Assembly (NCBI GenBank): GCA_949949005.1
Contig: CATLHM010000003.1
Span: 1-64,000, forward strand
Reading direction: 5' to 3'
DNA: 64,000 bases
DNA from: an uncultured Lachnospiraceae bacterium
GTDB taxonomy: Bacteria; Bacillota; Clostridia; Lachnospirales; Lachnospiraceae
The translations under genes were made by a program, and so were the position numbers. Below the pieces are notes generated by a model that worked only from the letters and a program-made list of their open reading frames with translations, did not search any database and was not told the DNA's origin. This document shows, piece by piece, positions 22,889 through 38,915 of the stretch (position 1 is the first letter of the stretch; every line of letters starts with the position of its first letter).

Positions 22889-25800
22889 ATGGCTAAAAAA
22901 GTAACGAAACGAAAAAACATAAGAATGAGAAGGCAGATCCGTAAGACGGTAGGCTGTCTGCTGCTTGCATCTGCAATTGTGGTTGCTGCTGTTCCGGTTC
23001 CTGAGATGAGTGCGAGGAGCGACCAGGACATTGAGAGAGTGGCGGTGGTTAATTATTATGACACGAAAGATGCAACAGGAGGAAATCTTAGCGAGGATAT
23101 AAAGAACAAAGTAGACCCCAAAACTGGTTATGAAAAAATCCCTGTTAAAAGTTATGCGAGTATAAACAGTACTGGTGCCACTCCAGCGCTTATGCGTGCC
23201 CCCCTTGCGTGGAGGAGTGATGTGCCTTATGTGAATTCGAGTGAGAAGATTTATACGACTGCGGACAAATCCCTTCAATTTGCGTACATCTATGATGGCC
23301 GGGAGTGGATTGCTATTATTTTAGGCCATAATATTAACAGTCTTCCGGATAACAAATTTACGATTCCTGCGGAAGTTGACGGATATCGGACGTATGATGT
23401 TAATGTGACGAATGGAGGCCTTTGTGCGGTCGGACGCAATGGGGAATTCCTTTATTATCGGGTGCCGGCAGAGTATCGGTATGTGCTGGATGGAGTCAGC
23501 CATCTGGTTTCGGATACGGATGCAAGCTTGGAAATGGGTTCTGATAGTAAGGTATACTGCCGGGCAACGAATGCTGCCGGAAAAGAAGAGTTATGTCTGG
23601 CGCAATTGGCCACACCGCAAAAATTTAATCCTTGCTACGAGAAGGATTATGATAGTTGGAAGGACATACCAGATACAGAATTGTATTATTTGCCTAAAGG
23701 AGCCAGTCCGGCACCGACTACGCAAAGTGCAAGTCTTTTTTCATGGTTTGGTGATTCCGCGGCAGAAGAGGGGACACCGATCCCTACAGAAACACCAATA
23801 GAGTGGGAGACAGCTACCCCTACGGAGACACCGGCAGAGGAGGAGACGCCTACCCCTACGGAAACACCGGCAGAGGAGGAGACGCCTACCTCTACGGAAA
23901 CACCGGAGGAGGAGACACCTACCCCTACGGAAATACCGGTGGAAGAGGAGACACCTACCCCTACAGAAATACCGGAGGAGGAGACTCCAACCCCCACGGA
24001 AACACCGATGGGGGAGGGGACACCGACTCCTACAGGAACGCCGGTGAAAGATGAGACGCCAACAGAGATTCCGGAGGGAGAAGCATCAAAGGATAAAACG
24101 GATAAAGCCGAGGGAAATGTGCCTTCTTCTTTGCCAGAATCTGATGATGGGAAGGCAAGTGAGCAGCAGACAACAACGGCGCCTAAAGGGAATACTTCTT
24201 TTCTTCCATTGTATACCTCTGAGCCGGAAGCTGAGCCTGAGACGGGTAAAAACCAAGATCTACATTATGAAGTTGAAACGGTGGTAGTATCATCCAGTGA
24301 CAGAGTGGTTATGGCATCTAATAGGGGGAGTCATTATGCTACAGGGAGTATTCTACATAATTCGGGCAGAATGATCACGATTGATCCAACCCCTTATAAA
24401 CAGGTAAAAAATGCAGGCGCTGATTCGGATGGGTATATGAGACTCCATAATGCCGTCGTAAAATATATAGGGCGTCAATATTTAAGTGCGAATGTGACTG
24501 AAGGAACATGGAAGATTGCAGGCCCGGTAACCAGTAAGAACCCTGATCGGGGTGTGTTTGCCGGACTGGGGAATCTTGTAAATCTGGAAACGAAAGCAGG
24601 AGAAAACGGCGAAAGTACGCTGGTCGGCATTGGTGACTATGCATTTTATGGCTGTACCTCTTTAGACAGCGTAAATTTTGCTAATGGTTTGCGCACCCTG
24701 GGAAATGGGGCATTCGAGGGATGCAAGAATATGGTAAGCTTTAATATTCCTGTGGCCTCCAATATAAGAATACTCGGAAAGGATACTTTTAGTGGGTGCG
24801 AAGCGCTGAAGAGTATTACTATTCCTACCAATGTGGAAGCGATTGGAGATTATTGTTTTCAGGGTTGTATTAATCTTGAGACTATTAATATGGGCAGAGA
24901 CGAGAGTGGGGATGGAAGCGGAGATGAAGGTGGAGATGGGAGTGAAAGTAATGACAGAAATGTTTCACTGAAAGTGATAGGGTATAAGGCTTTCCAGAAC
25001 TGTGAGAAGCTCTCATCAATTACTTTCCCAAGAGGATTTGAGCAGCGATATCCGGCGGATGCTGATGTGCAGGCAGAATGCGGATCGGATTGGGAAGCTA
25101 TAAAAGATGCTGAAAACGGAAAGATCCCGATCACATGGTTTGAGGGATGTAGGAGTCTGCAATTTATTAAGATTCAGAATAACACTCTGGATATTGTAGA
25201 TGAAAAAGAAATGGTGGCAAATTATACGGAGCAGGATAAGACTCACTTTGGGGATAAAGATGACGATATCAATAAGTTCCTTGAAAATGTGCCTGCGCTG
25301 TTCTATTTTGAAGGCCCGGGAATAAATGCCAATATTCGGGAGACCGCAAAATTACACTCAGCAGCTTTCAAATATATGGATGAAGATAAGTATGAGAAGG
25401 TAATGTGGTGTGAAGCTCATGCAGAAGATCCAAATGGCTCCCATGAAGCGGTTTTTGCGGTTAATTCCAACAATCAATTGGTTGAGATGATATTGGATCC
25501 GGCGTGTGGGATTGTGGATATACCTGGACAGATTGGGGCCAGATATATAGATACCATTGGGGAGCATAGCTTTGATAAGAGCAAGTGCTTTTTGAAGAGA
25601 GTTACGATACCGTCAACGGTAAAAGAAATTGAGAAAAATGTATTCAAGGGCTGCCATAAGTTGGAGGATGTAATTTTCACTCAGGATGGTACTAATGGAC
25701 CTTTAATAGGAGACGATGCATTTTTTACGCAGCAAGTAGACGGTATGCATAGTTCTGCTTGTGATAAGAAATCGACAGATATTTTGACCTTTACAGGAAC

Positions 25801-28549
25801 AATTTCTCCTTCCTCTACGCCATTTTTGTATGCGATGGATCCGGAGAATAATTATAATAGTAGTGCTCAGCCAGAGAGTTATATTACATTTTACAGTGGA
25901 TGGCCGTCTAACCTGATAGTACAGTATAATGCGAAAACAGATAAGAATGAGCTGATTAAATATCCTACAATAGCTGATCTGAAAAAATATACAGTGAAGA
26001 AGTATGACGGAGTAGCTACGGATCCTGATCAGGTTTTATGCTATCCATATCTTACAAAAGAGAATGCAGATGATGCTAACAAGGGTGCTGCAAGCTATCC
26101 TGACGGCTCCATGACAGGCGGACAGCAGGTTGCTGTTCAGGGAGCCTTAGATATTAACCTTCCGGCAGGAATAGAGTCTATTAAGCCAGGATTATTTTCA
26201 GGGACATATATTAACAGCGAGGATGGATCATTAGTGAAGGATGGTGCCCCTAATATGGATGTCCAGGCTGTTACAATGAATACGGTGGATACGGTTGAGC
26301 CTTATACATTTTCCGGCTGCACAGGACTTGAAAGATTTTATATGGCCGGCGGAAATAAGGTGGGAGATTATGTTTTCAAAAACTGTGAAAAATTAAATAC
26401 TGTAGAGATTGGTGCAAGTATAGCAGAGCTGGGAATAAGGCCATTTGCCGGGTGTAAAGTCCTAGAGGATGTTAAATTTGTAGATAGTCCCAATTTTGTT
26501 TGCGACGGAAGAATCATATACGGCTTAAAAGATGGTGCCAAGAAGAGCCTTATAGAATGCCTGGAGACCAGGGATGAGCGGGTAAAAGCAGAAGAACTGG
26601 CAGGTGTTGAGAGTATGTCTGAAGAGGCATTCATGAACTGTAAAGAAGTTGATAATGTAGATTTTTCTGAAAGTTCAGTTGCTATTATACCGAAACGGGC
26701 TTTTGCAAACAGCGGAGTGCATGATGTTACGCTTTCCAGTGCAACAACAAATGTTTTGGAGGGGGCTTTCTGGAACACTGATGCTTTAAAATATCTGACC
26801 GTTAATAATCCGATTACGATATTGGATAATGATATTTTTGCTGATGCAAAAGAAAATGACGGAGATATTTTATATGATAAAGACGGAAAGCCAATATTGA
26901 CTGATAGGACGGGTAAAGTAACTTTGGTGGTTCCGGAAGGATCGGTAGCGGAAAATTATGCCAATGGGAAACCGTATATCAATCTTGAGGTAAATCTTCC
27001 AATTGAATATTGGATAATACCTCCGGACGGAAGCGACAAACCTTTTAAAGCATATGACAGGACCACAACGAGAAGTAAATATGAGGATCCTGTTGCATGG
27101 GAGCAGGAGAAGGAGGATAAAGAGCCCAGTAGCAGCAGGGTCGATAAAGATCATCCCTATCCGGGATGGAAATTTGAAAAATGGGGTACTTATGAGATAA
27201 GCGGTGGTACAGGTATTAAAAAGCTGCAAAGTTATGCGGAGTTTTCACAGCTTGAAGGAACCAAATTCAGGGTAACGTTTTATGATGAAAGGCAGCCGGA
27301 TGTAACGCTTAGAAGCTGGTATGTAGATAAGAATCCAGGTGAATCTCTGAATTTTGGCGATGTGAGAGACCCTTACGATATGGTCAACTTTGAAAGGTGG
27401 GAGTCCGACAACGGTACGGATTTGTATGATCCGGTAAATGCCAATGTAACTTTTTATGCGAAATATAAGTCAAACGGAAGCGGAACGGTTCCGACACCAA
27501 GTGGAAGTCCGAATGGTTCAGGTGGTAACGGCAATGGATCTAATGGAAATAATCCTAACAGTACACCGGGCAGTTCTCCATCAGGTTCGCCTACAGCAAC
27601 GCCTTCGAGTTCCCCTTCAGCGTCCCCGTCAGGCTCGCCTACAGCAACACCTACGGCGACACCCGGAGATGATGTGGTTAAATATACGGTATCCGTATCC
27701 GGCGGAAGCGGCAGCGGCAGCTACCCCGCAGGAACGGTAGTGGCGATCAATGCCTATTACAGAGGAGAAGGCCAGGCATTTGACAGATGGACTTCTTCCA
27801 CGGCAGGGGTAGGATTTGCCAATCCTGAGTCACCTTCCACCACCTTTACCATGCCGGCTGCCAATGTAGCGATTACGGCGACCTACAAGGCCGGAGGAGC
27901 AGGTACAGCAACCACCAATACCGGCAGCGGAGCCAGCGGTGGGGGTGGCAGTGCTGTTGGCACGGCAACTAATAATGGCACCAGGGTAGACGTCACCAAA
28001 CCCGGAATCTCCAACACCAATCTTGCCGGAGCATCGGTAAGCGGTGCAACCGATAATTTCGTGGTGAAGGTTACGGAAGACCAGGCGGCGACCGATGCGG
28101 CAACCGCAGCTTTGCAGGCCAGATTCGGGGATCTCAGCAGGATTAAGTACTTCCCGATGGATATCAGCTTATATGATTCCACAGGGCGTACCAAGATTGC
28201 GGATACCTCGGGAATTTCCGTAAACCTGACTCTTCCTTTGCCGGATGAGCTGGTGCAGTATGCGGGAAATAACAAGATTGCTGCGATTGCAGGGGGAGCT
28301 CTTGAAGATTTGAATGCCAGATTTACCACAATTGACGGAGTGCCTTGTATCAACTTTACGGCAACCCACTTCTCACCTTATGTGATTTATGTGGATACGG
28401 CGAATCTGACGGAGGCTACCATTGACGCGACGCCCAAGACAGGCGACCCGATTCATCCCAAGTGGTTCCTTGCCCTTGGTATGGCATGCTTGTCACTGAT
28501 TTTATTCTTCAAACGTGATAGGGTAGTTATTAACTCAAAGACAGCATAG
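22889..28549 (+). CDS. BspA-type LRR surface protein, sortase substrate
   Basis: An 1886-residue surface protein. It has a signal peptide (residues about 18-42), a Glu/Thr/Pro repeat region (about 296-395), many BspA-type LRR_5 repeats (pattern IGDYAFYGCTSLDSVNF; about 570-1360), InlB-B-like repeats (about 1370-1530 and 1595-1670), Ser/Pro/Gly linkers, and a C-terminal domain ending THFSPYVIYV. The sorting signal is TPKTGD (about 1848-1853), a transmembrane stretch (WFLALGMACLSLILFF) and KRDR. This is not LPxTG; TPKTG fits class B sortase motifs. It lies 21 bp after srtB, and probably mediates adhesion. Confidence 0.85.
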   Translation: MAKKVTKRKNIRMRRQIRKTVGCLLLASAIVVAAVPVPEMSARSDQDIERVAVVNYYDTKDATGGNLSEDIKNKVDPKTGYEKIPVKSYASINSTGATPALMRAPLAWRSDVPYVNSSEKIYTTADKSLQFAYIYDGREWIAIILGHNINSLPDNKFTIPAEVDGYRTYDVNVTNGGLCAVGRNGEFLYYRVPAEYRYVLDGVSHLVSDTDASLEMGSDSKVYCRATNAAGKEELCLAQLATPQKFNPCYEKDYDSWKDIPDTELYYLPKGASPAPTTQSASLFSWFGDSAAEEGTPIPTETPIEWETATPTETPAEEETPTPTETPAEEETPTSTETPEEETPTPTEIPVEEETPTPTEIPEEETPTPTETPMGEGTPTPTGTPVKDETPTEIPEGEASKDKTDKAEGNVPSSLPESDDGKASEQQTTTAPKGNTSFLPLYTSEPEAEPETGKNQDLHYEVETVVVSSSDRVVMASNRGSHYATGSILHNSGRMITIDPTPYKQVKNAGADSDGYMRLHNAVVKYIGRQYLSANVTEGTWKIAGPVTSKNPDRGVFAGLGNLVNLETKAGENGESTLVGIGDYAFYGCTSLDSVNFANGLRTLGNGAFEGCKNMVSFNIPVASNIRILGKDTFSGCEALKSITIPTNVEAIGDYCFQGCINLETINMGRDESGDGSGDEGGDGSESNDRNVSLKVIGYKAFQNCEKLSSITFPRGFEQRYPADADVQAECGSDWEAIKDAENGKIPITWFEGCRSLQFIKIQNNTLDIVDEKEMVANYTEQDKTHFGDKDDDINKFLENVPALFYFEGPGINANIRETAKLHSAAFKYMDEDKYEKVMWCEAHAEDPNGSHEAVFAVNSNNQLVEMILDPACGIVDIPGQIGARYIDTIGEHSFDKSKCFLKRVTIPSTVKEIEKNVFKGCHKLEDVIFTQDGTNGPLIGDDAFFTQQVDGMHSSACDKKSTDILTFTGTISPSSTPFLYAMDPENNYNSSAQPESYITFYSGWPSNLIVQYNAKTDKNELIKYPTIADLKKYTVKKYDGVATDPDQVLCYPYLTKENADDANKGAASYPDGSMTGGQQVAVQGALDINLPAGIESIKPGLFSGTYINSEDGSLVKDGAPNMDVQAVTMNTVDTVEPYTFSGCTGLERFYMAGGNKVGDYVFKNCEKLNTVEIGASIAELGIRPFAGCKVLEDVKFVDSPNFVCDGRIIYGLKDGAKKSLIECLETRDERVKAEELAGVESMSEEAFMNCKEVDNVDFSESSVAIIPKRAFANSGVHDVTLSSATTNVLEGAFWNTDALKYLTVNNPITILDNDIFADAKENDGDILYDKDGKPILTDRTGKVTLVVPEGSVAENYANGKPYINLEVNLPIEYWIIPPDGSDKPFKAYDRTTTRSKYEDPVAWEQEKEDKEPSSSRVDKDHPYPGWKFEKWGTYEISGGTGIKKLQSYAEFSQLEGTKFRVTFYDERQPDVTLRSWYVDKNPGESLNFGDVRDPYDMVNFERWESDNGTDLYDPVNANVTFYAKYKSNGSGTVPTPSGSPNGSGGNGNGSNGNNPNSTPGSSPSGSPTATPSSSPSASPSGSPTATPTATPGDDVVKYTVSVSGGSGSGSYPAGTVVAINAYYRGEGQAFDRWTSSTAGVGFANPESPSTTFTMPAANVAITATYKAGGAGTATTNTGSGASGGGGSAVGTATNNGTRVDVTKPGISNTNLAGASVSGATDNFVVKVTEDQAATDAATAALQARFGDLSRIKYFPMDISLYDSTGRTKIADTSGISVNLTLPLPDELVQYAGNNKIAAIAGGALEDLNARFTTIDGVPCINFTATHFSPYVIYVDTANLTEATIDATPKTGDPIHPKWFLALGMACLSLILFFKRDRVVINSKTA
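23774..24078 (+). repeat. 33/36-bp tandem repeats in LRR gene
   Basis: About eight imperfect units code TPTPTETPxEEE-like blocks of 11 or 12 residues. All unit lengths are multiples of three, so gain or loss of units would change stalk length without breaking the frame. Confidence 0.7.
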
Positions 28550-28557
28550 GAGCTCCT

Positions 28558-31410
28558 ATGAACAGAAAAATTGCAAAATCCCTGAGTGCGCTGCTGCTGG
28601 TGACAGCAGTAGCGGTTACTCAGGTACCAGTATCAGATGTGGAAGCAGTAGCGACTGCATCTGATTTTGAAATGGATGGAAATAAATTATTGAAATATTC
28701 CGGCACTGAGGAAGTAGTGTCTATTCCTGATGGGGTCAAATCCATTGGGGAGGAAGCTTTCGCCGGGAATGATCATGTGGTTAAGGTGGAGGTTGGCAAT
28801 CAGGTGAAGTCAATCGGGTATCGGGCCTTCGCAGAGTGTGACAGCCTGCGCACTGTGGTCGTAGGGGACGGTGTGGAGGAAATTGATACGGCGGCTTTCA
28901 GCAACAATAAGGAGTTGGTGAACGTAAGCCTGGGTGCGGATGTGAAAAGCCTCGGAAGCGGTATTTTTGCAGGGGATAACCATCTGGAAAACCTGACCCT
29001 CTCAGAAGACAATAATCATCTGCATTATTCCAATGGTATCTTGTATGATGCGGAGGAGAGTAAGGTATTTGCCTTGATGCCCGCTTATGAAAAGGGGGCC
29101 TATACTCTCCCCAGTACGGTTCATGAAATAATGGGATATGCTTTTTGGGGAAATCCTTATCTGGAGAAGGTTACTCTCGGAAGCGGCCTGAGCGAGGTAC
29201 CGGCTTATGCGTTCTCTAATTGTCTGAATTTAAAGGAAGTGGAGATTCCCATGGCAGTCCGTGGGATTGGTGCCAAGGCTTTTGAGGATTGCGTGAATCT
29301 GGCATCGGTTTCCCTGCCGGAAACCATGCTGAAGATCAGCGATTCGGCTTTTGACGGTTGCCCGAAGGTGGAATTTACCGCTACGCCGGGGACTTATGGG
29401 GCGGAATATGCCGCCTCCCGCAGGACCTCTGAGGTGGAAGAGGTGGAGTATGAGGATGTACAGGATGCCCAGGTGATTGATGCGGACGTGATTTCGGAGG
29501 AGACAGAGCAGCCTCCTTCTTCCGAGGAAACGCTGACTCCTTCTTCCGAGGAAACGCTGACTCCTTCTTCCGAGGAAACGCCGGCTCCCTCTCCGGAAGC
29601 CGACGCGCCCACACCGACCCCTTCCCCAGAGACAGAGATGAAGTCTGTCACGGAAATTATCAATAATAAAACCCTTCTTGGCCAGTCAAGCATCGTCTCA
29701 GGCAGAGCATTAATTTTCATTGATAACAGGCAGCAATCCGTGATCAGCGGAAGCGGGGCGCAGAGCGCGAGGAAAGTGGATTTATCCAGTATGGAAAATG
29801 CTGCCAGCCAGATGGGAGCGGTGTTGAGTAGCAGTGCGGCGGAAGGCGGGGCCGGGACAGGAGAAGGCGAAGCGACACAGGCACAAGATGCGGCTGCCAT
29901 AGGGAATATCATGGCGGATAATGCCCAAAAGGGGAAGGATTTTCCCAAGTACACCATTGTGGGCGATCAAAAGATCGCTTCCCAGGCTTTTTATCAGGAC
30001 AGCGGTTTAACCTCTTATGAGATAGAGGATGGAATTACGCAGATCGGGGAATTTTCTTTTGCAAGGTCGGGGCTTACCTCGGTGGCTATTCCGGAGGGAG
30101 TGACCCATATTGGTTATGGAGCTTTTTATCACTGTGACAGCTTGAGTGATGTGGAGATTCCGGATTCCGTGACGGATATTGCCCCGTATGCTTTTGACAA
30201 GACTCCCTGGCTTACGAAGCTTCAGGCAGAGGCTTTTGGCATTGTGGGGGACGGAATCTTGCTTACCTATTCAGGGAGCGATAGTGTGGTGAATATCCCG
30301 GAGGGAGTGAAGCAGATTGGCCCGGGTGCATTTAAGGAGCATATGGGAATCACTGCGGTAAATCTTCCTTCCTCTGTTGAGGTGATTGGGGAAGAGGCTT
30401 TCATGAACTGCCGGAATTTGAAGACGGTGAACGGCGGAGAAAACCTTGTGAAGGTTAAGGACAGGGCTTTCATGAATTGTCCTTTGTCGAAGGTGACGAT
30501 TCCTGAATCCATGAAGGAAGTGGGGCTGGGGGCTTACGCGCTCTCGGGCGGTACGGATACGGTGGTGTTTATGGGAACTGACCTGCCGGCGCTTACCATG
30601 GAAAACACAGCCGGACGGCTTGCCAACGGGGAATACCGCACTTATGCCTTTGACAATATTAAGAATGCCATTATTCTGGAAGGGGCAGGGGATCTGGAAG
30701 GGACGGTACTGGAAACCGGTACTTACGGGTTCAGAGGAATCGTGTCCACGGAGACGGGGAGCCGGTCAGTAGATAATCAGTCAGGCGTATCCCAGGCAGA
30801 GGGCAGCGGTGTGAAGCTGGAGTTTAAGGGTACGGTGATCACGGAGGACGAGAACGTCTCAGCACAAATTCCCGGAAATGAGGATGCCTTTATTTTGGAG
30901 ATCAGCGATTCGGATGAGGCGGCGGCAGAGATTGCGGCGGCCTATGGGGAGCTTTATGGGGGCAGGGAGCCTTCTAAGCTTACAGCTTTTGATATGACGC
31001 TTTACGACGCTTCAGGAACCGTTCCGGTCACAAGGCTTGGAAAGCAGTATCTCACCCTACAGGTAAAAATGCCTGGAGGAATTTCCGCAGAAAATCTGCA
31101 TGTGGTTACCTTGGATCAGGATGGACAGTTGGAGGCTGTGGAGCACAGGGTGGTAGAACTGGAAGACGGAAATTACATCCAGCTTACGGTTAATCATTTT
31201 TCGCCCTATGGAATTTATCAGTATACGGCTATGAATGCCCAGGCAACAGTGTCGGACGGAAGGGCTGTGATAACCAATCCTTCCGGAAATAAGGATGATA
31301 CGCCGGATACCGGAGACTTTCTTCATCCCAAGTGGTTTTTGGCGTTAGGGCTTCTGGCAGGTGCGGTGGCGCTGTTCTTTTACAGAGGAAAACCCAAGAG
31401 AGCAAATTGA
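28558..31410 (+). CDS. LRR surface protein, second sortase substrate
   Basis: A 950-residue protein 8 bp after the first LRR gene. It has a signal peptide (about 1-30), LRR_5 repeats (about 40-275 and 470-690, e.g. SIPDGVKSIGEEAFAGNDHV), a Pro/Ser/Glu spacer between them, and a C-terminal domain similar to its neighbour's (NHFSPYGIYQY). It ends in TPDTGD, a membrane stretch (WFLALGLLAGAVALFFY) and RGKPKR. The shared HPKWFLALG after the motif shows that both sorting signals are homologous. It is likely anchored by the same sortase and may work with the larger LRR protein. Confidence 0.85.
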   Translation: MNRKIAKSLSALLLVTAVAVTQVPVSDVEAVATASDFEMDGNKLLKYSGTEEVVSIPDGVKSIGEEAFAGNDHVVKVEVGNQVKSIGYRAFAECDSLRTVVVGDGVEEIDTAAFSNNKELVNVSLGADVKSLGSGIFAGDNHLENLTLSEDNNHLHYSNGILYDAEESKVFALMPAYEKGAYTLPSTVHEIMGYAFWGNPYLEKVTLGSGLSEVPAYAFSNCLNLKEVEIPMAVRGIGAKAFEDCVNLASVSLPETMLKISDSAFDGCPKVEFTATPGTYGAEYAASRRTSEVEEVEYEDVQDAQVIDADVISEETEQPPSSEETLTPSSEETLTPSSEETPAPSPEADAPTPTPSPETEMKSVTEIINNKTLLGQSSIVSGRALIFIDNRQQSVISGSGAQSARKVDLSSMENAASQMGAVLSSSAAEGGAGTGEGEATQAQDAAAIGNIMADNAQKGKDFPKYTIVGDQKIASQAFYQDSGLTSYEIEDGITQIGEFSFARSGLTSVAIPEGVTHIGYGAFYHCDSLSDVEIPDSVTDIAPYAFDKTPWLTKLQAEAFGIVGDGILLTYSGSDSVVNIPEGVKQIGPGAFKEHMGITAVNLPSSVEVIGEEAFMNCRNLKTVNGGENLVKVKDRAFMNCPLSKVTIPESMKEVGLGAYALSGGTDTVVFMGTDLPALTMENTAGRLANGEYRTYAFDNIKNAIILEGAGDLEGTVLETGTYGFRGIVSTETGSRSVDNQSGVSQAEGSGVKLEFKGTVITEDENVSAQIPGNEDAFILEISDSDEAAAEIAAAYGELYGGREPSKLTAFDMTLYDASGTVPVTRLGKQYLTLQVKMPGGISAENLHVVTLDQDGQLEAVEHRVVELEDGNYIQLTVNHFSPYGIYQYTAMNAQATVSDGRAVITNPSGNKDDTPDTGDFLHPKWFLALGLLAGAVALFFYRGKPKRAN
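29513..29584 (+). repeat. 24-bp tandem repeat in second LRR gene
   Basis: Two perfect 24-bp units (29513-29536 and 29537-29560) plus 20 identical bases of a third code the eight-residue block TPSSEETL. In-frame length variation is expected. Confidence 0.75.
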
Positions 31411-31440
31411 TTTCAGCAATGATGAAAGAGAACTGTTTTA

Positions 31441-31481
31441 AACTCCCGGCATATGATAATTAAAAAGCCGGGAGTTTTTTT
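31441..31481 (+). terminator. Terminator of sortase operon
   Basis: AACTCCCGGC (31441-31450) pairs with GCCGGGAGTT (31467-31476), followed by a run of T. The GGGAG of its 3' arm is also 7-8 nt before the ATG of the split protease gene, so it could double as that gene's ribosome site. Confidence 0.75.
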
Positions 31482-31577
31482 ATGCTTCGGGTAAGAGAAC
31501 AGGTTGGATGCAGCGACGAGCTGATCAGTTCCTGCGGGGACAGCGGCGTGACCATAGCGGTGTTAGATACAGGGGAG
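31482..31577 (+). pseudogene. 5' fragment of split S8 (subtilisin-like) protease
   Basis: From ATG 31482 the frame reads MLRVREQVGCSDELISSCGD then SGVTIAVLDTG, which includes the catalytic Asp motif (D29) of S8 proteases. After ACAGGGGAG (31569-31577) the sequence leaves the family and stops within ten codons. The rest of the gene resumes at 33696, beyond a 2.1-kb insertion. The fragment alone cannot be a protease. Confidence 0.8.
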
Positions 31578-31872
31578 CGTGTTATTATATTGTCAAGTTA
31601 GTGAAACCAGAGAAAATACAAGGGGCTTTGCTGATTTGTATTCTATATAGGACTGGATTGGCTTTCGGTTTACCGGCTGATGCAGTCCTATTCCTTTGCC
31701 CGGATGATAGGAAGCGAAGAAGGGCGGCCACCTCTGCATTAGAGAATAGGACATACTTAGTATGTAATATAATAGATAGCACGCTGATGCGTGCGCAGGT
31801 CGTAAGGAATCCTCCCATCTACGATGGGCCCCTCCCTGCGACAATATATAATATAATGCTGGAGGGTTTGGT

Positions 31873-32142
31873 ATGTACTTGTCAAAGGAAGAATTGCAGA
31901 AGATGGAGCAGGCGGACTTAAGGGAGGCTGACCCGGACACCCTTGTGGATATCAGCGGGATAGAAATTGACAGGAAGAAGCCGGTTCCTGCCAGGGTAGA
32001 AGATTATGTACAGAAGGTAGGTAACCCCTTCCTTGTGAGGGTAGGGGAATATGTAGTCAAAATCGGTTACTCTGAGCAGGCCGGGACACTTAATGACAGG
32101 ATGAAGCAGTATACAAGAAAAGTTGCCCAGATAAAGTATTAG
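31873..32142 (+). CDS. Small DUF6870-like mobile-element protein
   Basis: An 89-residue protein with GGAGG before ATG 31873. It begins MYLSKEELQKMEQADLREAD and contains VDISGIEIDRKKPVPARVED and FLVRVGEYVVKIGYS. This small family (DUF6870-like) is common on Clostridia conjugative elements. Function is unknown. Here it is the only cargo beside the recombinase, so a role as a control or directionality protein is possible (inference). Confidence 0.65.
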   Translation: MYLSKEELQKMEQADLREADPDTLVDISGIEIDRKKPVPARVEDYVQKVGNPFLVRVGEYVVKIGYSEQAGTLNDRMKQYTRKVAQIKY

Positions 32143-32169
32143 CGAAAGCCTTTACAGACGGCAGGAACG

Positions 32170-33540
32170 GTGGCTTTCTGCAAGAAAAATAAAAATCAAT
32201 ACAATCCGAAGGGAGGCTGCTTTATTACGGAAAGTTATTTAATTGCAATCTATCTCCGCCTGTCCAAAGAGGATGATAAAGGGAAAGAAGAGAGCAACAG
32301 TATCGCCATGCAGCGCTTTCTCTTAAAAAGATATATAGAGCAGAATTTTACAGACTATGAGATAATCGAGTTTTGCGATGACGGTTATACAGGCACGAAT
32401 TTTGACCGCCCGGGCATGCGGGAAATGCTGGAAAGGATAAGGAACGGTGAAATTAACTGCGTAATTGTGAAGGATTTTTCGAGGTTTGCGAGGGATTATA
32501 TCGAACTTGGCGCTTACCTTGAACAGATTTTTCCCTTTCTCGGCGTCCGTTTCATTTCCATTAATGACGGCTATGACAGCACCGGCATTCAGGGCGGTAT
32601 AGCTGATATGGATGTGAACTTCAAGAATCTGCTTTATGACCTGTATAGCAGGGATTTATCGGGCAAGGTGCGTTCTTCCCTTTCTATAAGGAAGAAAAAG
32701 GGGCAGTACGTAAGTGCAAACAGCCCTTTTGGCTATGAAAAAGACCCACAGGACAGGCATGCATTATTGATTGCTGAGGATGAGGCGGAAGTTGTCAGGA
32801 GAATTTTCGCCCTGACGCTGGAGGGGCGCACATCCGTGGAGATTGCGAAGCTGTTCAATGAGACAGGGGTAAAGACGCCGACCCAGTTTAAGATTGAGAA
32901 GGGGAAGATAAGCCGGATTCCGAAAGGGGGAAAGTTTTTATGGAGCAGCACCACCATATGCCAGATACTCCGGAATGAAATCTATATCGGGAATATCGTG
33001 CAGAAAAAATATGAGAAGGATTTTGTGGGTGGGAAAAACCACATAAAGCCCCGTGAGGAATGGCTGGTTACTTACGGGCACCATGAACCAATTATCAAAA
33101 AGGAAGCTTTTGACAAAGTGCAGGAGAGCAGGGGAAGCAGCAGGCGGCATACTCCGCAGACACCCTTTATGCTTAAGGGAAAACCACCTCAGCATAATCA
33201 GGCACATCCGCTTGTGGGAAAAATGGTTTGCGGCTGTTGTAAGAAGAATCTGAGTTACCGCAGGGGGCTGAACCCATACTTTACCTGTTCCCACCGCTAT
33301 TCCAATACCATGGAAAACTGTGTCCGGAGGGTAAATGCCATGTTTGCGGAGCAGTATATCCTTTGGATGATGCAGGATAAGATGGAAGCGGAGGCTAGGT
33401 GTTCCACTGTGGAGAATGGCGGGGAAGAATATCCCGGGGAGACGTTTGCGGAGCTGTCTAAAGATATGATAGGGAGGTATATTGATAAGATTGAGGTTTA
33501 TGATGAACAGCATATGGAAATCCGGTGGAAGGATAAATGA
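32170..33540 (+). CDS. Compact large serine recombinase
   Basis: 456 residues from GTG 32170; a later start near 32220 would fit the family better but lacks a standard codon. The N-terminal resolvase domain has the catalytic Ser in IYLRLSKED, then MQRFLLKRYIEQ, FCDDGYTGTNFDRPGMREML and VKDFSRFARDYIELGAYLEQ. A recombinase domain (SPFGYEKDP ... LWSSTTICQILRNEIYIGNI) and a zinc ribbon (MVCGCCKKNLSYRRGL, then YFTCSHR) follow. The coiled-coil region that usually follows the ribbon is almost absent, and the tail ends LSKDMIGRYIDKIEVYDEQH. It should catalyse excision and integration of the element around it. Confidence 0.85.
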   Translation: MAFCKKNKNQYNPKGGCFITESYLIAIYLRLSKEDDKGKEESNSIAMQRFLLKRYIEQNFTDYEIIEFCDDGYTGTNFDRPGMREMLERIRNGEINCVIVKDFSRFARDYIELGAYLEQIFPFLGVRFISINDGYDSTGIQGGIADMDVNFKNLLYDLYSRDLSGKVRSSLSIRKKKGQYVSANSPFGYEKDPQDRHALLIAEDEAEVVRRIFALTLEGRTSVEIAKLFNETGVKTPTQFKIEKGKISRIPKGGKFLWSSTTICQILRNEIYIGNIVQKKYEKDFVGGKNHIKPREEWLVTYGHHEPIIKKEAFDKVQESRGSSRRHTPQTPFMLKGKPPQHNQAHPLVGKMVCGCCKKNLSYRRGLNPYFTCSHRYSNTMENCVRRVNAMFAEQYILWMMQDKMEAEARCSTVENGGEEYPGETFAELSKDMIGRYIDKIEVYDEQHMEIRWKDK

Positions 33541-33692
33541 AGGATCTAGAAAGTATAAAAACAGTGCGTCCTCTTGCAGTAATTTTACATGGACAATTTT
33601 ATTTTAAGGCAATGGTTTAACAGCAGACAGGGAAATGGAGCCATAAAGAGGTATAATCTTAAAAAAAAGATAAAAAAAGTCGTTGCAGATAC

Positions 33693-34526
33693 TTGACAGG
33701 AGAGGGGGTGGCTATCCACCCCGATTTTGATAAAAGAATACTTGCATTTAAGGACTTCGTGAACGGAAAAAGGAATGCCTATGATGACAGCGGGCACGGT
33801 ACCCATGTGGCGGGCTGTCTGTGCGGGAGCGGCCTGCTCTCTGAGGGCAGGTATAAGGGAATCGCACCAAAGAGTCGTCTGGTGGTGGGAAAGGTGCTGA
33901 ATTATAAGGGAGATGGAAATGTGGAGGATATGGCGGCGGGAATGGAATGGATACTTGGGCATATCCAGGAGTATGATATTCGAATCCTGAATATCTCCAT
34001 CGGGATGGACGAGAGTATCGACAGGGAGAGGATGGGGCAGTTGGTGGGGCTGATAGATAAAGCCTGGGAGGAAGGGCTCATCGTAGTATGCGCTGCCGGG
34101 AATATGGGGCCTGAGCCCATGACCATCTCGCCTCTGGGAGCCAGGAAAGAGGTGATCACGGTGGGGTGTCATGAAGGAGGGTATTTCAGAAATCATCCCC
34201 ATCTGTGTGAGGATTATTCCAGCCGGGGGCCCAGTCCTTTTTCCATGAAAAAACCGGACGTGGTGGCTCCGGGAACGGATATTATCTCCTGTAACGGCAA
34301 GATTTCCAGAAGAGGCAGGTATTACAGGAATGCCTATATCAGCAAAAGCGGTACTTCCATGGCAACGCCTATCGTATCCGGGGGATTGGCACTCCTTCTT
34401 CAAAAATATCCTTATTATACAAATAGTCAGGCAAAACAGAAGCTGATGTATACCTCAAGGGATTTGAATGAACCCTGGAATAAACAGGGATGGGGAATGA
34501 TTCAGATTGACAGGCTGCTGAAATGA
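33693..34526 (+). pseudogene. 3' fragment of split S8 protease
   Basis: The frame continues the protease from ACAGGAGAG: TGEGVAIHPDFDKRI, the His motif DSGHGTHVAGCL, the Asn region VVCAAGNMGPEPMTI, and the catalytic Ser in SKSGTSMATPIVSGG. A TTG at 33693 could start translation, but the product lacks the catalytic Asp. Joined to 31482-31568 it would give a protease of about 305 residues, normal for an intracellular bacterial S8 peptidase, with no signal peptide. Confidence 0.85.
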
Positions 34527-38259: not shown

Positions 38260-38589
38260 ATGAATAGAACATTTAAAGAGGTGCCATCTTTTACAGAAAA
38301 ATGGAGAGCGCTTGGGCTGACGGATGAAGACTTAAGGGAGTTAGAAAATATATTGCTGCGAAATCCTAAATTAGGAGATGCCATTCCGGGTACAGGCGGT
38401 ATAAGAAAAATAAGAATTCCAATAGATAACATTGGAAAACGAGGGGGAGGGAGAGTAATTTATGTAGATATAGAGGTAAAAGAGTGTATTTATCTCTTGA
38501 ATATTTACATGAAAAATGAAAAAACAGATTTAACAGAAAAAGAAAAGAAGATGTTAAGAAAGCTTGTAGATGTATTGAAGGAGGAATGA
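38260..38589 (+). CDS. higB: HigB/RelE-type toxin
   Basis: A 109-residue protein. FTEKWRALGLTDEDLRELEN, then GDAIPGTGGIRKIRIP, GGGRVIYVDIEVKECIYLLN and a C-terminal helical LTEKEKKMLRKLVDVLK match the HigB-2/RelE superfamily of ribosome-dependent mRNA interferases. Basic residues (K and R in GIRKIRIP, R in GGGRVIY) lie where the active-site surface is expected. It precedes an HTH antitoxin gene (toxin first, as in higBA) and is separated from its ATG by 2 nt. Confidence 0.75.
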   Translation: MNRTFKEVPSFTEKWRALGLTDEDLRELENILLRNPKLGDAIPGTGGIRKIRIPIDNIGKRGGGRVIYVDIEVKECIYLLNIYMKNEKTDLTEKEKKMLRKLVDVLKEE

Positions 38590-38591
38590 CT

Positions 38592-38915
38592 ATGAGTTTT
38601 TATGAAGATATGGAAAAGAGTCTGTTGGAGGCTATTGCAATGGAAAAGGAAATGGTAACATTGGAAGAAAAAAAGGAGATGCCTGCACCGACTTTTGTTG
38701 TTTCCACAAAGGAGAAGGAACTGATTGACCAAATGGTTTGTCTCCGCAAAGAAAAAAACATTTCTCAGAAACAGTTGGCGGAAATAACAGGTAATAAGCA
38801 GCAATCAATTTCCAGAATAGAAAAAAATGAGCATAGCCCATCATTACAGACATTTTGCAACATTCTGAATGCATTGGGGTATGGGCTTACGATTGAAAAG
38901 AAAGTAATGCTTTAA
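38592..38915 (+). CDS. higA: HigA-type antitoxin with HTH domain
   Basis: A 107-residue protein. The C-terminal half is an XRE helix-turn-helix (LRKEKNISQKQLAEITGNKQ, then SISRIEKNEHSPSL), and the N-terminal half is an acidic toxin-binding segment. ATG 38592 has AAGGAGG (38577-38583) 8 nt upstream; ATG 38586 is too close. It should bind the palindrome in the promoter at 38167. Confidence 0.75.
   Translation: MSFYEDMEKSLLEAIAMEKEMVTLEEKKEMPAPTFVVSTKEKELIDQMVCLRKEKNISQKQLAEITGNKQQSISRIEKNEHSPSLQTFCNILNALGYGLTIEKKVML

Follow-up and report, generated by a model that had tools for sequence, protein, structure and literature searches.

A subtilase gene in two parts

The window analyzed here is a 64,000-nucleotide stretch of DNA from an uncultured Lachnospiraceae bacterium (assembly GCA_949949005.1, contig CATLHM010000003.1, positions 1 to 64,000). 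Within it, a protease gene of the S8 (subtilase) family is carried in two parts, an N-terminal part at 31482-31574 and a C-terminal part at 33708-34526, with a serine recombinase element between them. An earlier note, made from the letters alone, had claimed that such an element splits the gene, and this holds, since two coding parts of one S8 gene flank the recombinase; its size estimate of about 2.1 kb likewise agrees with the computed 2,133 bp, core to core. The features of the locus are as follows.

31449..31458, + strand: CATATGATA box of the S8 gene (box 31450-31458), a predicted mother-cell sigma-E/K -10 element
31482..31574, + strand: first 31 codons of the S8 gene (N-terminal part), the last four reading LDTG
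31572..33704, + strand: the whole 2,133-bp element, from one core up to the other
31572..31573, + strand: left GG core (attL), with the element-side consensus GAGCGTGTTATTATATTG coming next
31763..31863, unstranded: structured repeat in the element, also found elsewhere in the genome
31873..32142, + strand: DUF6870 gene, 89 aa (PF21757, E 5.6e-26), candidate excision helper
32170..33540, + strand: serine recombinase gene, 456 aa counted from a mechanical GTG start
33682..33704, + strand: right-end consensus GTTGCAGATACTTGACAGGAGAG, the element end
33705..33706, + strand: right GG core (attR), from junction comparison
33708..34526, + strand: C-terminal part of the S8 gene (PF00082, E 1.7e-45)

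The insertion point lies within the Gly codon of the LDTG motif, which carries the catalytic Asp. Unexcised, the N-terminal frame continues into the element as ERVIILSS and then meets a stop, giving 39 aa in all. Joined at GG, the flanks form a single open frame of 303 aa with no internal stop, and this product matches the intact 303-aa orthologue of genome G006, the uninterrupted sister gene for which the earlier note had called, at 265 of 303 residues without a gap. The same length is found in 112 of the 120 S8 homologues listed (from 2,461 at E<=1e-60). Across the genus, 7 left and 12 right junctions of the S8 and csp insertion site show the host codon GG(N) on either side, which places the crossover within the Gly codon, at its GG dinucleotide. 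A split coding gene, a frame that precise joining restores, and a serine recombinase between matching att cores are features that the locus has in common with the sporulation gene-intervening elements skin, gin and yin.

The junction proposed earlier, ACAGG-N-GAG, mixes host and element bases, and joining there adds two codons that intact relatives do not have; the core common to all copies is GG. The in-frame join that had been foreseen is confirmed, with the length of its product corrected from about 305 residues to 303.

The neighborhood contains two further sets of genes. Upstream of the S8 gene (22889-31410) are two large repeat-rich proteins (1,886 aa and 950 aa) whose C-termini resemble each other, the second of which also occurs in G001 and G012. 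Downstream, at 38260-38915, are two small adjoining ORFs of 109 aa each, which look like a HigB/HigA-type toxin-antitoxin pair.

Contents of the element

The element had been described as carrying almost nothing but a recombinase. The recombinase is there, accompanied by the 89-aa DUF6870 gene; these two are the only genes identified among the ORFs of the 2,133-bp element, and none for conjugation was identified. Resolvase and Recombinase domains in the recombinase score above their cut-offs, and zinc-ribbon and DUF4368 matches fall below theirs. The protein retains the catalytic Ser (residue 32) and a KDFSRFARD motif, lacks the ATG start of its relatives, and is 80% identical over its length to the recombinase of the S8-gene element in G001. 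Both element ends in the window fit the consensus.

The AlphaFold model of the DUF6870 protein is of moderate confidence (mean pLDDT 72.6) and returned no fold match in the PDB at E<=0.001. With neither a fold match nor a paper found, its identification as a known excision factor was set aside. Between the left end and this gene lies the structured repeat, about 80 bases long, with 18 other matches in the genome (80-94% identical, some in tandem); of 24 matches found in the genome, 18 belong to this part of the element. An Rfam search of the repeat gave no family at E<=0.1.

Sibling elements in the same genome

The host genome is 3.0 Mb and 59% complete. A Peptidase_S8 search of it returned three loci, all split at the same codon: the gene in the window and two of the germination-protease (csp) type. 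A CspA/C-like gene adjoining clpX is split by a 3,859-bp element with two serine recombinases, and a cspB gene by a 1,346-bp element that carries an acetyltransferase and a YbjQ-like gene without a recombinase. The ends of the three elements match and their interiors differ. By copy, the recombinases are of type C in the window, of types A and B in the CspA/C-like gene, and absent from cspB. That two other S8 genes share both the element ends and the target codon indicates that the insertion is more than chance.

The identity of the CspA/C-like gene rests on the NCBIfam CspBA model (second half, with E 1.3e-72 but short of the curated cut-off) and on PDB 4i0w (E 2.9e-62), and NCBIfam CspC models also match it below their cut-off. 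The CspB assignment comes from the Pfam CspB_prodomain in an intact relative and from PDB 4i0w. When joined, the CspA/C-like product (DTGIRY) and the CspB product (DSGIDF) each align to intact relatives with no gap.

A mother-cell-type box upstream of the targets

The motif CATANNNTA has the form of a sigma-E/K (mother-cell) -10 element. It stands at -31 to -33 from the S8 ATG in all 33 genomes compared, against 0.025 expected per 75 nt, the genomes being related and hence dependent observations. The same motif is found upstream of the CspA/C-like gene in 25 of 28 genomes (0.82 expected) and of the CspB gene in 16 of 31 (0.93 expected). On the basis of this box the S8 gene may be a mother-cell gene; the sibling targets are, by homology, germination-type proteases. 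In C. difficile, csp expression depends on sigma-E and that of sleC on sigma-K (PMC3789822). The best sigma-K match in the host genome, a sigma-K/E-like gene, is uninterrupted and scores 281.6 bits, below the cut-off of 298.65.

A hairpin comes after the upstream gene (31440-31481), and the S8 box occupies its loop, an arrangement kept across the genus. No copy of CATANNNTA precedes the element's own genes; the sole copy in the element is inside the recombinase gene. A weak terminator-like site at 31675, between the S8 start and DUF6870, is of a kind about as frequent in shuffled sequence.

Relation to known intervening elements

Several intervening elements are known to split sporulation genes. 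The closest is gin, which interrupts the single gene gerE of Bacillus cereus ATCC10987 and consists of 28.6 kb with three recombinases and a 9-bp core. Like the window element, gin is not a phage and belongs to the serine-recombinase kind; the gene it divides is a sporulation gene, and precise excision of gin rebuilds gerE. Recombinase GirC and the small factor GirX (42 aa) suffice for this excision, and the one recombinase and one small protein of the window element parallel that pair. Unlike gin, the window element is 2.1 kb long with one recombinase and a GG core, targets a subtilase and has siblings in two more genes (PMC5595907).

The skin element in sigK and SP-beta in spsM likewise sit in sporulation genes and are removed as the cell sporulates, but these are prophages or prophage-like and have other target genes (PMC5025042, PMC4191935). 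In a clostridium, the sporulation protease gene yabG is the site of the intervening element yin, of which both integrated and circular forms were seen; yin differs in being prophage-like and in targeting a cysteine protease gene (PMC10747680). Finally, streptococcal integrative and conjugative elements (ICEs) carry a serine integrase triplet, and the element in G004 has three recombinase genes in a row in the same way. The window element is unlike those ICEs, whose named targets are hsdM, traG and mutT, in having one recombinase and no conjugation gene (PMC4701971). Among the matches listed in these literature searches, no paper described a split csp or S8 gene, and none described paralogous targets split at one codon.

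Proposed excision in the mother cell

The element is best read as a reduced relative of the sporulation intervening elements skin and gin. We lean, by a modest balance of probability, toward its being cut out at the two GG cores in the mother cell at sporulation, restoring the 303-aa S8 protein. The box upstream of the S8 gene would be a sigma-E or sigma-K promoter, and its transcript, reading on into the element in the same direction, would also express the recombinase. Because the DUF6870 and recombinase genes share the host gene's strand, the host promoter could express the two of them, and recombinase expression from the S8 promoter would tie excision to the mother cell. DUF6870 is a candidate helper of the reaction, and the recombinase-free cspB copy may be excised in trans. 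As with skin in sigK, the spore would still pass on an element whose loss is confined to the dying mother cell.

The earlier note had raised the idea of a skin-type switch. Speaking for it are the GG join, which restores the length and residues of the orthologue, the box found in 33 of 33 genomes, and the siblings in germination-type protease genes; that the element is a switch rather than a tolerated insertion is what we infer from these. Against excision stand the absence of a recombinase from the cspB copy, the lack of a box ahead of the element's own genes, the missing ATG of the recombinase, the further insertions in cspB of G029 and G025, and a right end that lies in a kinase-like frame in G010. 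A wider form of the proposal, in which all subtilase genes found in the genome are split, recombinases of types A, B and C act in trans on one att sequence, and the mother cell rebuilds the whole set as a shared multi-gene rearrangement, is speculative and rather unlikely.

Distribution, selection and possible permanent insertion

A possible though less probable explanation is that an ordinary site-specific mobile element targets a conserved subtilase codon and stays there permanently, in a gut bacterium that can afford the loss of the gene. The distribution of split genes is in keeping with it, as they are scattered over species whose nearest relatives are intact. Within the genus, the S8 gene is split at the LDTG codon in three of the 34 genomes judged (G000, G001 and G036), a count that leaves out G012, where the gene runs off the contig, and G023 and G035, which gave no strong match. 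The insertion is accordingly not unique to one strain, the circumstance that the earlier note had named as speaking against a switch: the same S8 codon is split in G001 and in G036 (right junction only). The CspA/C-like gene is split at that codon in six of 31 genomes (G000, G004, G014, G025, G034 and G036; a G022 fragment was set aside), and the CspB gene in four of 34 (G000, G014, G025 and G029). In total, the genus has 13 genes split at the LDTG-type codon, spread over 8 genomes, several of them by the evidence of one junction only.

The variation of the elements in cargo and size also suits a permanent insertion. The S8 element of G001 has type-B and type-C recombinases, the type-C one being the 80% identical relative of the window's, and the element found in G004 is 13 kb long and ends on the right with three consecutive serine recombinase genes, the outer two truncated; among the elements examined, no copy has all three recombinases complete. 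Further insertions occur in cspB of G029 and G025. The G029 gene appears to be broken at three sites: in the Asp motif, past FLY, and close to the 3ʹ end (L087, L088, L272).

Searches for the element ends bear on the same question. In 194 genomes, a left-end pattern free of host bases had 16 matches. Eight had at most two mismatches, seven in S8 genes and one in a SleC-like gene (our label, for a gene with SpoIID and peptidoglycan-binding domains). The other eight, at three mismatches, showed no S8 residues in the frames read; only left ends with at most two mismatches were counted, because those with three equal the backward control of the pattern (likewise eight) and look like chance. With host bases included, nine of ten matches fall in S8 genes and one in the same SleC-like gene. 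Of five right-end matches, four are in S8 genes, and the fifth, in a histidine-kinase-like frame of G010 and not in a spore gene, favors permanent insertion. Pointing the same way is a related left end found right at the 3ʹ termini of csp genes, where an insertion costs little: it has 16 matches, 14 in csp genes or tail pieces and one elsewhere (G058), with G025:C11 not read and outside this split.

This second class of left end swaps the last residues of CspA/C-like and CspB proteins for a new short tail (L060:2121-2160; L061:2000-2060). Outside the genus, in other genera and families, S8 relatives are interrupted at different conserved motifs, each time next to a serine recombinase (L063, L064, L067, L069, L070). 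The break is close to the His motif in G091 and G075 and close to the Asn motif in G039; in G077 and G083 it follows the Asn motif. The adjacent recombinases were assigned by Pfam for G077 and G083 and by eye for the others. In G039 (L062:1611-14060), about 11.5 kb separates the parts of the S8 relative and contains fatty-acid-synthesis-like genes and three serine-recombinase-like genes.

Set against permanent insertion are the mother-cell-type boxes common to the targets, the hitting of three S8 genes in one genome by elements with intact ends and different interiors, and the state of the coding parts, which are open and have low dN/dS. No interrupting stop was found in the C-terminal parts of the split genes. 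Tip dN/dS, derived from pairwise distances between present sequences, ranges from 0.015 to 0.166 in 11 interrupted sequences, and a twelfth gave no value; synonymous distances are near saturation. Ten of the 11 fall inside the range that the intact tips of the respective gene span; the exception is the CspA/C-like gene of G025, at 0.166 against an intact maximum of 0.124. The window S8 tip stands at 0.080, and the intact median is 0.075. The nearest sequence is intact for all 12 interrupted tips, however, so young insertions would give the same picture.

Possible decay of the window copy

Improbable is the view that the window copy is a decaying remnant that has lost its partner genes and its capacity for excision, leaving the S8 gene dead or dying. 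Its single recombinase, compared with two in G001 and three (two truncated) in G004, and the unclear start codon could be taken as signs of such decay, but the recombinase frame is open and as close to that of G001 as stated above, both ends fit the consensus, and the S8 dN/dS is near the intact median. Moreover, gin itself requires just one recombinase and one small factor (PMC5595907). An assembly artefact is unlikely, the window lying inside a 203,937-base contig and the 13-kb element of G004 having both ends on one contig.

Implications

If mother-cell excision is correct, germination proteases would be added to sigK, gerE, spsM and yabG, the genes that are repaired in the mother cell alone, and several paralogues would share a target codon and perhaps a pool of recombinases. 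Germination of gut commensals would then hinge on mobile elements, and the question of why mobile elements settle in mother-cell genes would become testable. If the insertions are instead permanent, several species have split csp genes and may germinate differently. The locus also provides a family of recombinases whose short target lies within a conserved codon of the active site.
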